A stretch of DNA of 64,000 nt from assembly GCA_024516035.1 (NCBI GenBank), contig CM044961.1, forward strand, positions 31,791,051 through 31,855,050. Reading direction: 5' to 3'. The stretch is from Bactericera cockerelli (Eukaryota > Arthropoda > Insecta > Hemiptera > Triozidae). Position numbers and translations under genes: made by a program. Numbering within the stretch: the stretch's first letter is position 1; every line of letters starts with the position of its first letter. The notes under the pieces are model-generated. The model was not told where the DNA came from and ran no database searches. It saw nothing but the letters and a program-made list of their open reading frames with translations. Of the stretch, positions 12,470 through 62,450 are shown one piece after another.

Positions 12470-12534
12470 TCCGGCCCTACCTGCTGGGTGAGGTTAATGT
12501 GGGTAACTGGTACGATTATTATCAGCCTCCGTGG
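12470..12534 (+). repeat. SINE family B core fragment
   Basis: GGCCCTACCTGCTGGGTGAG and ATGTGGGTAACTGGTACGAT, the family B core, stop just before a second, fuller B copy. Confidence 0.65.
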
Positions 12535-12886
12535 CGTAAAGGTTGTGACTACTGCCCGTGGTCCAGAGATCCTGAGTTCGATCCCCGGTCGGAGCAGACT
12601 TTTCACACATAAAATTCTGTTCCCTCCGTACATGTAAGGCTGGCATTTCCGGCCCTACCCAGGCTAGGTGAAGTTAATGTGGGTAGCTGATACGATTCCT
12701 AGCGAATGGAGGGTAAAACCCCCGTCCTACTTCAGGATGTTTAATCAAATGGAATCGTTGGCGTTAGGAAGGGCATCCAGCCGTAAAAAATATGCCTAAA
12801 CCAATCAACCTCAACTATGAGGGTGAACAACGTCGACCCTGCCCAAGCAGGATAAGACAAAGTAAAAGAAGAAGAAAAAGAGAAGA
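12535..12886 (+). repeat. SINE family B (Gly-tRNA-like head), near full length
   Basis: The head runs from GCCTCCGTGGCGTAA to GAGTTCGATCCCCGGTC (B box), with the anticodon-like loop CTGCCCG. The core has GGCCCTACCCAGGCT, ATGTGGGTAGCTGATACG and GCGAATGGAGGGTAAAACC. The 3' part has GGCGTTAGGAAGGGCATCC and CAACCTCAAC, then GATAAGACAAAGTAAAAG and a (GAA)n tail. A second tail fragment lies at 12989-13027. It appears inserted in an older B copy. Confidence 0.88.
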
Positions 12887-23651: not shown

Positions 23652-23878
23652 AGTCCGATGGCGCTTTGAATGCAACGATTCTTGTAGGATCACTGAAGTT
23701 AAGCAACGTCCAGCGAGGAGAAGACTTCGTGATGCTGGCATTCCGGCCTAACCCAGGCTGGGTGAGATAAATGTGTTTAGGAGGTTGGTGAGTTTCTTGC
23801 GAATGGAATGTAACACCCCCGTTATGATATGACCATGCAGTTGAAACGCGATATTAAACCCAAATTTAAAAAAAAAAT
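23652..23878 (+). repeat. 5S-derived SINE, variant lacking the C-box segment
   Basis: GAAGTTAAGCAACGTCCAGC (5S A-box region), then CCAGGCTGGGTGAG and GCGAATGGAATGTAACACCC (core), then ATATGACCATGCAGTTG. Compared with the 41426 copy it skips about 30 bases (TTGGATGGGTGACC region). The copy at 62229 has the same gap, so this is a subfamily. Confidence 0.8.
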
Positions 23879-28161: not shown

Positions 28162-28483
28162 ATACTGATAATTCTTCTTCACTCTCATGCGGGGTCGACG
28201 TTGTTCAACCTCATGGTTGAGGTTGGTTGGTTTTGGCACATTTTTTACGGCTGGATGCCCTTCCTAACGCCAACGATTCTATTCGATTTAACGTCCTGGA
28301 TTAGGGCGGGGGTTTTACCCTCCATTCAATAAGAATCGTACCAGCTACCCACATTTACTTCACCTAGCCGGCAATGTGTGGAGGGAACAGAAATTTCTAT
28401 GTGAAAAGTCTGCACCTACCGGGGATCGAACTCAGGATCTCTGGACTACGGGCAGTAGTCACAACCGTTACGCCACGGAGGCT
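28162..28483 (-). repeat. SINE family B, near full length
   Basis: On the minus strand: head with GGCGTAACGGTTGTGAC and GAGTTCGATCCCCGG, then the 3' part with GCGTTAGGAAGGGCATCC. A (GAA)n-like tail at 28162-28172. Part of the core (GGCCCTACCCAGGCT region) is shortened. Confidence 0.85.
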
Positions 28484-28639
28484 GACAAATATACATACTG
28501 ATAATAATACTGAAATAACAAACACCGAATACAAACTAAAAAAACATTTGAACAAATTTGATGATAAAACCATCGAATCCGCGACTGGATTCAATTTTTA
28601 TTTATTTGCAGGTCGTTTACAAGAAAAAATTCACTGCTC

Positions 28640-36715: not shown

Positions 36716-37440
36716 TTCTCTTCGAATGTGAGACGCTGGATAACAGGAGATTTAGGATTTTTGAATCCAGTAATCTCGAAGATCTCCATAACCAAGAACA
36801 CCTTGTCCAGAGACTGACACTTCTCATGAAGGGAACAGGTTTCTGGACTTAGGGTGTTCAGCATTGGACAACCACTCCCAACTAAGCCCAGTTGGGCCGT
36901 CATAGGCACAGAACTGGGAAATAGGATGAGAAATTATCTCCCTGGTCACAATAGATCTCACTAGGTCGCAGTGTTAATTGTATGGTGTTTCAGCTGAAAC
37001 CTTGCAACCAGGTTTTATAATAATAATAATTATCATCTTTCTTTTGAGAAACTTCTTGAGAAAATTGTGATCCACCAGGTACGCTATAAAAATTAATTAC
37101 CTGGAGCAGGACATATTTCACAATCTTCCTCTTGCTCCCGGGCCCAACATTAATTAATAAACAAATTAAAATTAAATTAGAGACTCCATTTCGCTCTCTT
37201 GTTTGCAACAATTAAAATCATGAAGGAACTTTATGAACAATCCCTCTCGCAGACATCAAAGGCGCGGGACTTTATGCAACTCAAAGGTTTCAGCAGAATA
37301 ATTCTGGCGAAACACAACGAAGTGTCAGCTGGAGGACGGGGGTTCGATTCCAGGAATCTATATGATTATTGTTAAATCTTTTATTTATAGGACAGGTAAC
37401 ATCTTAGATGCTAGGATTAGTAACAACTTGATTTTATTGT
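36716..37440. other. No supported gene
   Basis: Frames at 36594-36827 and 36694-36909 (-) share this segment but show no motif I recognise. (TAA)n near 37017-37028. GGTTCGATTCC at 37343 is an isolated B-box-like motif. Confidence 0.4.
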
Positions 37441-38764: not shown

Positions 38765-38796
<32 letters not shown>

Positions 38797-39207
38797 TGGG
38801 GTTTAACGTCGCTTTCAACTGCCATGGTCATATCACGACGGGGGTTTTACCCTCCATTCGCAGGAAACTCACAAACCTGCTACTCACATTGACCTCACCC
38901 AGCCTGAGTGGGGCCGGGAAAAGCCAGCGTCACGAGAATTAGAATTTGAATGGTCACCCATCCAGTCTTAACCTCGCTGGATGTCGCTTAACTTCGGTGT
39001 TCTGAAGGGAACCGGTGTATTCAACACTGCCATCGACGCTGGCTCACTATTATGTTTTGGATACTATTATGGATTGGTGCTCAGGACACTTTGCTTCGAT
39101 TTCAAGGTTCTAAAAATACTATTTTAGAATAAACTCAGTACAATTTTGGGGCCCCGCGCCTTGAAATTGCCAAGGGCCCCGCGCAGCCTTAATCCGGCAC
39201 TGACAGT
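37692..39207. mobile_element. DNA transposon remnant, CAGTGCCGGATTAA ends (hAT-like by inference)
   Basis: CAGTGCCGGATTAA (37692) is mirrored by TTAATCCGGCACTG (ends 39207). Inside both ends lie GCCAAGGGCCCCGCGC-type segments, with further GGGGCCCCG copies near 38030 and 39150. No transposase frame survives and no clear 8-bp duplication is visible. It contains an L fragment (38268-38314) and a 5S-derived SINE. Confidence 0.65.
38766..39044 (-). repeat. 5S-derived SINE, full length
   Basis: On the minus strand: AGCCAGCGTCGATGGCAGTG, TTGAATACACCGGTTCCC, CACCGAAGTTAAGCGACATC and GGATGGGTGACC. This follows the metazoan 5S rRNA order and spacing up to about base 95 of 5S. It continues into the core (CAGGCTGGGTGAGG, GCGAATGGAGGGTAAAACCC), a tail TTGAAAGCGACGTTAAACC, and poly(A) (T-run 38766-38793). 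Confidence 0.9.
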
Positions 39208-40097: not shown

Positions 40098-40617
40098 CGA
40101 CCTCAGTAGCTTGATTGATAAGACTATGGACTTGTAACCTGGAGGTCGGTGGTTCAAGTCCCGGTTTCAGCGTAATAATAATCTCCCTTGCCTTTATCCC
40201 ATATTAGCTTATGTTGCTTTTGGGGTCGGCATTGTTCAACCTCATGATTGAGGTTGGTAGGGTGGAGCACGTTTTTTATGGCTGGATGCCCTTCCTAACG
40301 CCAACGATTTTACTTGCTTTAACGTCCTGGATTAGGACGGGGGTTTTACCCTCCATTCGCTGGGAATCGTACCAGCTACCCACATTAACCTCACCCAGCC
40401 TGGGTAGGGCCGGAAATGGCAGCCTCACGTGTTTGGATGGAACAGAATTTTCTTCGAAAAGTCTGCCCCAGCCGGGAGTTGAACTCGGGAACTCTGGACT
40501 ACGGGCAGTAGTCACAACCATTACGCCACGGAGGCTGTTTTCAGCGTAGATTTAGTAAAGCGAGTTTGAGTAGTTGTGATATCAAGAAAGTGAATAACAC
40601 AAATATGATAACTTTAA
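40098..40617 (+). repeat. SINE family A interrupted by a family B insertion
   Basis: 40098-40174 is the head to TTTCAGCGTA. The copy resumes at 40539 (TTTCAGCGTAGATTTAG) and ends near 40617. The 10-bp TTTCAGCGTA is present on both sides (40165-40174 and 40539-40548). Confidence 0.9.
40175..40538 (-). repeat. SINE family B (subtype 2), full length, nested
   Basis: On the minus strand: head GCCTCCGTGGCGTAATGG, core GGCCCTACCCAGGCTGGG to GAGGGTAAAACCCCCGTC (40336-40429), and end GATAAAGGCAAGGGAG plus (ATT)n. Inserted in a family A copy with a 10-bp target duplication. Confidence 0.92.
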
Positions 40618-41088
40618 CTTATAAATTAATATAAAAAAAATCGCTTTCCATCACATTTTGACGGAACCCTGAATTGAGAAAACTAAATTTCTTAAAGACA
40701 AAAGTCAAAGGACAAAGTCAAAATTATTTTGACCCTAAGGGGAACATTTCTAAATGCAACAAAAAATGAGAGAAAGTACTTGTCTCTTTAAACTTTTTAA
40801 TTTTAGCATTATGTTGACAGGGTAGCCCAGGTAAAATTAGAAGTAAAAAATTGGCTACAAGATACAAGTACACTCTTCGTCAAAATAAGAGAGCACGTAA
40901 GCTGTTTTTCATTTAAAATTTAACTCCATGTATTTTCATGCGAATGAGAAGTGATGCAACTACTGTTGTACATAACATTTTCTGAAGATTTTTGTTAAAA
41001 AAAAACTCAAGTCAGTGAAAATTATCTTATAGGGCACAAAAAGAGTACAATACATGTACCAATTCTTCGACAGAGAAAAAAAGTAGTG

Positions 41089-41127
<39 letters not shown>

Positions 41128-41349
41128 CAAACCTCATTAAATTTTATACGGATACATTTTAGAATTATTGATCATATCAAAAGGAAGAAGGTAAAAAAGA
41201 ATAGAAGAATACTATCGTCTCCGATATCGCTTGTCTCAGGGTAAAATTTTGAAGAAAAAGTGTCCAAAATAATGGTCACTTTTTTCACTGTCCACAATAT
41301 TTGGTACATGTTGTCTTTTAATTATTGTTGTATTTTTTCAATATAACCA
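40618..41349. other. No gene; one antisense poly(A) end
   Basis: The T-run at 41093-41126 followed by CAAACCTCATTAAATTTTA looks like a minus-strand retrocopy end. The remainder is AT-rich. Confidence 0.45.
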
Positions 41350-41800
41350 ACCTCAGTAGCTTGATCGATAAGTTGGTGGACTTGTAACCAAGTCCCGGTT
41401 CAAGTCCCGGTTTCACGGTAGGTTTTTTTTTAAGTGGGGTTTAACGTCGCTTTCAACTGCCATGGTCATATCACGACGGGGGTTTTACCCTCCATTCGCA
41501 GGAAACTCACAAACCTGCTACTCACATTGACCTCACCCAGACTGAGTGGGGCCGGGAAAAGCCAGCGTCACGAGAATTAGAATTTGAATGGTCACCCATC
41601 CAAGTCTTAACCTCGCTGGATGTCGCTTAACTTCGGTGTTCTGAAGGGAACCGGTGTATTCAACATGCCATCGACGCTGGCTAATAAAGCGTTTAATTTA
41701 ATAAAGGTAGGTTTAATAAAGCGAGTTTGAGTAGTTGAGTATCGCGAAATTGATTAACACAAATATGATAGCTCATTGTGTAATAAAAGTTTGTCTTAAA
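41350..41800 (+). repeat. SINE family A interrupted by a 5S-derived SINE
   Basis: Head 41350-41425, with a partly duplicated AAGTCCCGGTTC, then insertion, then body 41706-41800. GGTAGGTTT occurs at 41417-41425 and 41706-41714. Confidence 0.88.
41426..41705 (-). repeat. 5S-derived SINE, full length, nested
   Basis: The best-preserved copy. On the minus strand the 5S-like head has GAAGTTAAGC (A box, 41625-41634) and TTGGATGGGTGACC (C box, 41590-41603). The core is at 41475-41573 and the poly(A) side at 41426-41431. About 24 extra bases lie between the 5S start and the target duplication. Confidence 0.92.
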
Positions 41801-45117: not shown

Positions 45118-45236
45118 AGGGAAGTGGAAGGAAGGTTACCTAGGAAGCTTATCAAGGTACCTAAAACTAACTCACTTGCCTGAGTATAGTCGAATTTTAT
45201 TATTAATTTTTTTAACCGAAAATAACCGCGTAACTA

Positions 45237-45475
45237 GCCTCCGTGGCGTAATGGTTACGACTACTGCCCGTAGTCCAGAGATCCAGAGTTCAAATCCCCG
45301 GTTGGGGCAGACTTTTCGACAAACATTTTGATCCATCCAATAACGTGAGGCTGCCATGTCTAGCCCTACCCAGGCTGGTTGAGGTTAAAGTGGGTAGCTG
45401 GTACGATTCCCAGCGAATGATGGTTAAAACGCCCGTCCTGGCTACTCAGGACGTACATCAGAATTAGAATCAAGT
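45237..45475 (+). repeat. SINE family B, 3'-truncated
   Basis: Head GCCTCCGTGGCGTAATGG to GAGTTCAAATCCCCGG, and core with CCCTACCCAGGCTGG and GGGTAGCTGGTACGATTCCC. It ends after CAGGACGT. Confidence 0.87.
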
Positions 45476-54020: not shown

Positions 54021-54227
54021 AATTTCTGGAGAAATTGTCTAATAAAATTAGTAGTTTAAAGAAAAATATCCACAAAAAACTGTAATATCCACACAAAAAA
54101 ACTTTCCGTAATCGACTCGACAAGTAAAATTTATATTTTCTGTGTGATTCACACCATATTTAATTTTTTTTTAAATAAATAACAACATACCTAATTGCCG
54201 TACTACGCAAGAAAGCTCTAAACACTG

Positions 54228-54456
54228 TGAAGCCGGCATTTCCACCCATCAGGCTGGGCTAGGTTATCGCGGGTAGCTGGTACGTTTCCCAGCAACTGGA
54301 GGGTAAACCGTGGTCCTAATCATAACGTTAAATGAAATAAAATCGTTGGCGAAGGGCATCCAGCCGTAAAAATGTGCCACAACCAACCAACCTCAACCAT
54401 GAGGTTGAACAATGCCGACCCCAAGTAGGTTTCCGAAGAGGCAGTGTAAAAGAAGA
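54228..54456 (+). repeat. SINE family B, 5'-truncated
   Basis: It begins in the core (GGCTGGGCTAGGTTATCG, GGGTAGCTGGTACG), then GGGCATCCAGCCGTAAAA, CCAACCTCAACCATGAGG and a short (GAA)-type end. A few bases of GCGTTAGGAAGGGC are missing. Confidence 0.8.
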
Positions 54457-62232: not shown

Positions 62233-62440
62233 GCAATGGCACGTAAATGCACCGGTTCTCGTAAGACCACAGCAGTTACGGAACGACCAGCGAGGTGAAG
62301 ACTTCGTGACGTTGACATTCCGGTCGAACCCACGGTGAGGTTCATGTGAGTAGCAAGTTTGTGAGTTTCCTGCGAATGGAGGGTAACACCCCCGTCGTGA
62401 TATGACCATGCAGTTCAATGCGACTTTAACCCCAAAAAAT
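62229..62440 (+). repeat. 5S-derived SINE, short subfamily
   Basis: Head ATGGCACGTAAATGCACCGG and TTCTCGTAAGACCACAGC, then CAGCGAGGTGAAGACTTCG, jumping to the core (GTGAGGTTCATGTGAG, TTTCCTGCGAATGGAGGG) and tail ATATGACCATGCAGTTC. It lacks the C-box segment, like 23652. Confidence 0.82.
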
Positions 62441-62450
62441 TAATCCACAT

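Follow-up and report, generated by a model that had tools for sequence, protein, structure and literature searches.

The window analysed here (the whole stretch of 64,000 nucleotides from Bactericera cockerelli) contains copies of two families of SINEs, that is, non-coding elements that depend on RNA polymerase III for transcription and on LINE enzymes for copying. Family T is headed by a tRNA-like sequence, family F by a sequence derived from 5S rRNA, and the stretch common to both is called the core. Family T is represented by one copy, listed with its parts, and by four further copies:

40175..40537, minus strand: T SINE, whole element, with the target-site duplication TACGCTGAAA (minus strand) at both sides
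40165..40174, unstranded: target-site duplication of the T copy, 3′ side, TTTCAGCGTA on the plus strand
40539..40548, unstranded: target-site duplication of the T copy, 5′ side, TTTCAGCGTA on the plus strand
40464..40535, minus strand: tRNA-like head (Rfam tRNA 17.8 bits, below the gathering cut-off of 29; boxes A and B by eye)
40531..40537, minus strand: predicted terminal helix, 5′ strand CAGCCTC
40420..40426, minus strand: relic strand GAGGCTG, predicted partner of the 5′ end
40418..40429, minus strand: putative 5S relic, 12 nt inside the core of the earlier note (by anchored comparison to the final 14 nt of the 5S gene)
40336..40417, minus strand: shared body proper of the T copy (sequence alignment with the F body)
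40359..40376, minus strand: predicted body hairpin H2, GCTGG/CCAGC
40175..40335, minus strand: tail of type t2, ending in AT-rich repeats (the t2 consensus resembles the 3′ end of LINE L045)
12523..12856, plus strand: T copy (window search)
28191..28484, minus strand: T copy, relic stretch lost (window search)
45236..45454, plus strand: T copy (window search)
54217..54424, plus strand: T copy with no recognised head (window search)

Family F is represented by two young and two older copies:

41423..41681, minus strand: F SINE, young copy, ending in an A run
41417..41422 and 41706..41711: possible target-site duplication of this copy, GGTAGG; a short, weak candidate, allowing 24 nt of filler
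41560..41681, minus strand: 5S rRNA-derived head (Rfam 5S_rRNA 65 bits, E 2.1e-11)
41561..41572, minus strand: 3′-terminal stretch of the 5S part (CGTGACGCTGGC), homologous to the T relic
41475..41560, minus strand: shared body of the F copy (sequence alignment with the T body)
41498..41518, minus strand: predicted body hairpin H2, GCAGG/CCTGC
41423..41474, minus strand: F tail, GTGATATGACC...GACGTTAAACCCCACTT(A)n, unmatched by any of 11 LINE ends
38785..39044, minus strand: second young F copy (98.9% over 261 nt; Rfam 5S 59.2 bits)
23656..23875, plus strand: older F copy (window search)
62236..62448, plus strand: older F copy (window search)

By eye, both SINEs sit inside copies of one other tRNA-like repeat (CTCAGTAGCTTGAT...TTCAAGTCCCGGTTTCA), which spans 40100-40174 with 40538-40640 around T and 41350-41422 with 41706-41760 around F.

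Extent of the shared body

The earlier note on this DNA had placed the two bodies on the minus strand at 40336-40429 and 41475-41573 and had aligned them over about 95 bases. Coordinates and strand are correct, and a query-to-query comparison aligned the bodies over 98 columns with 82.7% identity (E = 1e-21). The motif CGTGA-GCTG, which had been counted as part of the core, has to be assigned differently in F, where the Rfam 5S match at 41560-41681 extends into it. Judged by sequence, the 12 leading nts of the shared stretch are the 3′ end of the 5S part in F and not body. Because about 12 nts of the core are 5S 3′ end, the shared body proper measures about 82-86 nts. With these first 12 nts removed, the consensus bodies are identical in 72 of 86 aligned columns, and the score of the T consensus (55.5) was matched by none of 5000 dinucleotide shuffles, the best of which scored 14.

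The 5S identity of the F head, as had been proposed, stands: a gene transcribed by RNA polymerase III supplied this head (Rfam 5S, 65 bits), which is identical to the 5S gene in 89 of 123 columns. The other head, called Gly-tRNA-like in the same proposal, is only tRNA-like by Rfam, at 17.8 bits against a cut-off of 29. Among 20 F-headed copies (the 21st, with a match of 26 nts only, was left out), ten have lost the 5S box C region through an internal deletion with one common junction (L017:8782, L027:1155, window:23729, L017:1364, L014:8065, L005:364, L022:8597, window:62306, L021:3289 and L021:9717), seven keep box C and three fit neither pattern. This older, box C-deleted F subfamily is abundant despite the loss of the region.

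Copies, target sites and tails

The assembly of 565,017,811 bases in 1032 contigs was searched for both families. A 502-aa open frame on L022 makes a psyllid host most likely: three of its six homologues in the protein search carry a species name (Diaphorina citri, Cacopsylla melanoneura and Cyamophila willieti), and these three species belong to Psylloidea. A core profile built from 37 copies and applied at E <= 1e-3 to 289 kb gave 51 matches, 10 of them in the window, 11 in eight loci picked for exact identity to the core and 30 in twenty 10-kb samples spaced at fixed steps along contigs C1-C5. At least one core copy occurs in 11 of these 20 stretches, and extrapolation from 30 copies in 200 kb gives about 85,000 core copies genome-wide (bootstrap 42,000-133,000). 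Within the window, the core of family T was found at 10 places at E <= 1e-2, itself included. Genome-wide, all 40 of the scored matches to the T core (out of 1030 candidates) are identical at 94 of 94 positions. For the F element, of which the best 40 of 639 candidates were scored, at least 16 of the 41 matches listed, among them the window copy, span 257 or more of 268 nts at 98% or more. As core matches abound in the window, the loci and the fixed-step stretches, both families are multi-copy, and the near-identical copies in each make both look recently active.

The flanks of the 51 core matches (200 nts upstream and 230 nts downstream) carry the T head in 18 cases, the F head in 21 (one by 26 nts only), neither in 12 and both in none. 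T-type tails follow 17 of the 18 T heads and none of the 21 F heads, while the F tail follows 15 of the 21 F heads and none of the 18 T heads. The difference in heads and tails between the families, which the earlier note had described from the window, holds for the core matches with a recognised head, none of which mixes heads or tails. A single chimeric copy, the circumstance under which the note would have withdrawn its head swapping, was looked for and is ruled out by the copy counts of both families. Head swapping fits, because one core is common to two multi-copy families that differ in head and tail. Both families consist of many dispersed short copies without an enzyme of their own, as SINEs do, and, as in a SINE superfamily with a conserved central domain, the same core stands under different heads within one genome. 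Antisense translations of both SINEs had no homologue among 5.8 billion proteins, and exact core patterns gave 0 matches in viral and prokaryote contigs, a result of little weight from an exact-pattern scan. An old, degenerate core copy lies at L023:9752-9809 and L024:4821-4869, inside a second repeat common to both loci.

Target-site duplications, a hallmark of retrotransposition, are clear in T and sparse in F. Of the 27 copies whose head start is intact, 12 have duplications of at least 9 nts, compared with 35 of 1080 swapped-flank controls. The count for T is 10 of 14 (40 of 840 controls), six of the 14 being from loci picked by exact core match. The count for F, for which most of the copies examined are old, is 2 of 13 (28 of 780 controls). 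At a length of at least 11 nts, one of 13 F copies has a duplication, or two of 13 when AT-only matches are counted, against 0 of 780 controls in either case. The clearest F duplication, of 13 nts, is at L021:786.

T copies carry at least four tails after the common GGACGTTAAA. Three of them end in simple repeats, (GAA)n in t1, (AT)n in t2 and (ATT)n in t3, and the definition of t4 comes from a single copy (L003), a second occurrence being recognised by eye at position 45345 of the window. These tails and the F tail were compared with 11 LINE ends, ten picked from 150 scored matches plus L041. The query LINE has its reverse transcriptase domain on L041 and an endonuclease domain on the adjoining L020:8709-9374; we take its clade to be RTE. 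Tail t1 matches the end of L042 with 87% identity over 54 nts (E 5e-12) and, more weakly, five other LINE ends, down to E 0.005. Tail t2 matches L045 with 75% identity over 57 nts (E 2e-6), and L046 too. The matched ends of L042 and L045 sit just behind open frames of 1024 and 1031 amino acids. For t3, t4 and the F tail there was no match at E <= 1 among the 11 ends, so that a 3′ end shared with a LINE, as is usual for SINEs, was found for t1 and t2 and not for t3, t4 and the F tail.

Tails t1 and t2 are like the 3′ ends of LINEs related to this RTE-clade element, down to the repeat at the very end; the SINEs differ from these LINEs in having a head of RNA polymerase III type and no coding capacity. 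On these matches, two RTE-like LINE lineages probably copy the T family. The first LINE end compared showed a weak likeness, 2 of 1000 shuffles being as good for t1 and 101 of 1000 for t2, and without the terminal repeat 682 of 1000 shuffles were as good for t1; it was set aside, as other ends matched better. A window repeat at 36942-37026 with a t4-like tail was likewise considered and has no clear reading frame. An element without the core, at L020:5475-5580, bears GGACGTTAAAC and AGAAAGGGCATCCGGCCGTAAAA as in the T tail.

The putative 5S relic and the predicted RNA fold

The 5S gene of the genome, taken from the Rfam matches with the highest scores (up to 115 bits), has GCCAACGTT at its start and ...CACGTAACGTTGGC at its end. 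With 47 scored, the high-scoring 5S genes are scattered and in loose clusters (for example C3:25323917-25411737 and C1:48100583-48214464), partly on both strands, and do not form one tandem array. The F element starts GCCAGCGTC; its 5S part has CTCGTGACGCTGGC at the end, and the core of the earlier note starts there. At the position of this 3′ end, the T consensus carries CACGTGAGGCTGGC. Over the last 14 nts, F and the T consensus each agree with the 5S gene at 11 positions (P = 4e-5 for T, fixed register), the young T form, to which the window copy belongs, at 10 and the older F form at 9. T also shares both changes (A to G and T to C) that separate the last 12 nts of F from the 5S gene. Within the 5S helix, both differences between F and the gene are paired, A-U having become G-C and U-A having become C-G.

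Read most simply, this comparison would make T the descendant of a 5S-headed SINE, still with the last bases of the old head; the 12-nt relic kept in T would thus point to replacement of a 5S head by a tRNA-like one. The length of the relic, only 12-14 nts, counts against 5S having come first, as do the 10 matching positions of the young T form and the 9 of the older F form. Apart from the relic, the T head has no similarity to 5S (594 of 1000 shuffles as good). A 5S origin of the T linker, between the tRNA part and the relic, was considered and rejected, 1265 of 5000 shuffles being as good.

In the predicted fold of F, the 5′ end pairs with the relic-homologous strand as in helix I of 5S rRNA, and in that of T, CAGCCTC at the 5′ end is matched by GAGGCTG of the relic. 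The sole relic base that differs between T and F fits the sole differing head base, giving a compensating pair (C-G in T; G-U or G-C in F). Folding of head and relic alone, leaving out the body, gives this terminal helix a mean pair probability above 0.99 in both families. In an alignment of 15 distinct rows, 5S gene included, 87.4% of cells are paired, against 23-51% when one strand is slid by 1-3 columns, and no shuffle of 500 reached the covariation score or the number of cells with two-sided change. This alignment omits three of 27 copies (two without the relic stretch, one with a poorly matched head start), and the two outermost columns of its T rows are flanking DNA.

Coincidence or an artefact of folding could also have produced the pairing between the 5′ end and the relic, in which case the shared body would be all that the families have in common. 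The change between T and F is one event, which counts against the helix, and the folding was done in silico; a 7-bp run to the relic arises in 92 of 20000 shuffled heads, and the four of nine pairs with two-sided change were equalled by 57 of 500 shuffles. Against this, the helix sits at the register of 5S helix I, pairing drops when the strands are slid, and the covariation score lies above those of all 500 shuffles, which makes coincidence or artefact rather unlikely, if worth taking seriously.

A second structure that differs with the head is the body hairpin H2, which reads GCTGG/CCAGC in family T and, in most rows of F, GCAGG/CCTGC. In an alignment of 24 full-length or nearly full-length copies picked from the 51, 91.3% of its cells are paired and no shuffle of 500 reached its covariation score. 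Of the 23 distinct rows, 12 have U-A and 9 have A-U at pair 70-97; two-sided change is seen at one pair in nine of these rows and at another pair in one row. The count of pairs with such change (2 of 5) was reached by 346 of 500 shuffles, and slid by -3 columns H2 is still 89.8% paired, over 49 cells instead of 115. Hairpins H1 and H3 are predicted in both families and have no two-sided change, which leaves covariation uninformative for them. For the two main window copies, of T and F, no shuffle of 200 folded as well (z -3.2 and -3.5), and both copies follow the same overall plan, with an extra short stem enclosing H1 in T. The head-dependent differences in helix and hairpin are present in the aligned copies; the fold that they suggest may form, and may be of use, in cells.

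Origin of the shared body

We favour, with moderate confidence, the explanation that T and F share their body because one gave rise to the other when the 5′ head was exchanged, with the 5S-headed family first, the terminal helix kept and the tails of T exchanged as well. The older arrangement would have been a 5S rRNA head followed by the body. In a later joining, a tRNA-like head would have been placed before the last ~12 bases of the 5S part and the body, most likely through template switching during reverse transcription. The retained 5S strand would then pair with the new 5′ end, which is why both RNAs, presumably transcribed by RNA polymerase III, would take one overall plan, a head domain closed by the terminal helix and then three body hairpins. 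T would also have exchanged its 3′ tails, two of which resemble the ends of two RTE-like LINE lineages. With several tails and an exchanged head, family T would be modular at both ends.

The opposite order, in which T came first and 5S rRNA was later joined to its body, is the direction proposed for a moth pair, HaSE3 having been derived from HaSE1 (PMC3272025, in excerpt), and it agrees with the lack of 5S similarity in the T head beyond the relic. It would need 12-14 nts resembling the 5S 3′ end to have been present in T by chance, in the right register and with the two SINE-specific changes of F, and it has to contend with the fact that the bases equivalent to the relic complete 5S helix I in F; we regard it as distinctly unlikely. 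Still more doubtful is a separate acquisition of the body by each family from a third element, for instance part of a LINE or a lost SINE: SINE bodies have been suggested to be LINE-derived (PMC8010984, in excerpt) and 10 of the 30 core matches in 200 kb lack a recognised head, but such a source would need to contain the 5S part, where the shared stretch begins, and no LINE was seen around the core matches in a non-systematic reading of their flanks as listed (200 nts up, 230 nts down).

If the 5S-headed family did come first, it can tentatively be proposed that a 5S SINE swapped its promoter for a tRNA-like one and kept the 3′ strand of helix I, with which the 5′ end of the new head pairs, that the swap is polarised by this remnant and that both kinds of SINE RNA are under selection for a closed 5′ end; this fuller version is possible, and we hold it with some reserve. 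Promoter changes in SINEs have mostly been deduced from shared bodies, with the first head usually obscure, whereas here the swap would gain a direction because a leftover of the old head persists inside the new family. A requirement for a closed 5′ end, if real, would be a rule limiting where head swaps succeed. Were the terminal helix itself required, the site of the breakpoint would be explained and a simple test of the purpose of SINE RNA structure would be at hand. With both families apparently active until recently, experiments and comparisons among psyllids could address the question.

The Deu type of SINE includes both 5S and tRNA heads. The named superfamilies resemble T and F in having one central domain with different heads and tails; they are shared between animal groups, whereas the T/F core was examined in one genome and was likened to them by description. 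Superfamilies with a conserved domain include CORE, V, Deu, Ceph, Nin, Inv, Pln, Snail and Meta (PMC8010984, in excerpt).

Head swapping over a common body is already known in moths. The tRNA-headed HaSE1 and the 5S-headed HaSE3 of Helicoverpa armigera have body and tail in common, so that the general phenomenon has been described in insects (excerpts of PMC3272025). As far as the published description, rather than the letters, allows a comparison, that pair is like T and F: tRNA- and 5S-headed SINEs of one insect with a common body, a tail resembling RTE LINEs and template switching as the proposed route (PMC3272025, in excerpt). The two cases differ in that HaSE1 and HaSE3 share body and 3′ tail, whereas the tails of T and F differ and T has several, and in that the direction proposed for the moth pair is from tRNA to 5S, whereas the relic points from 5S to tRNA (same excerpts). 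High identity was also reported in Lepidoptera between the 5S-headed PxSE4 and PxSE5 and the tRNA-headed ObSE2, with bodies said to be unlike the named domains; by description these too are insect SINEs with 5S and tRNA heads, but across moth species (PMC8010984, in excerpt). The relic, a helix kept across a swap and a SINE family with the tails of two LINE lineages are not described in the excerpts of PMC3272025 and PMC8010984. The core itself was not found described among the top matches, mostly openly licensed papers, on arthropod or hemipteran 5S SINEs, SINE domains, psyllids and template switching; six exact 18- or 19-letter pieces of it have no occurrence in the searched literature, which carries little weight.

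Two further open frames were noted besides the SINEs. One, at 1827-2201 of the window, resembles by eye the C-terminal exon of an alkaline phosphatase and adjoins a T-type tail fragment at 1754-1815. The other, of 692 amino acids at L009:7242-9317, has the transposase domain Pfam DDE_Tnp_1_7, presumably of the piggyBac type.
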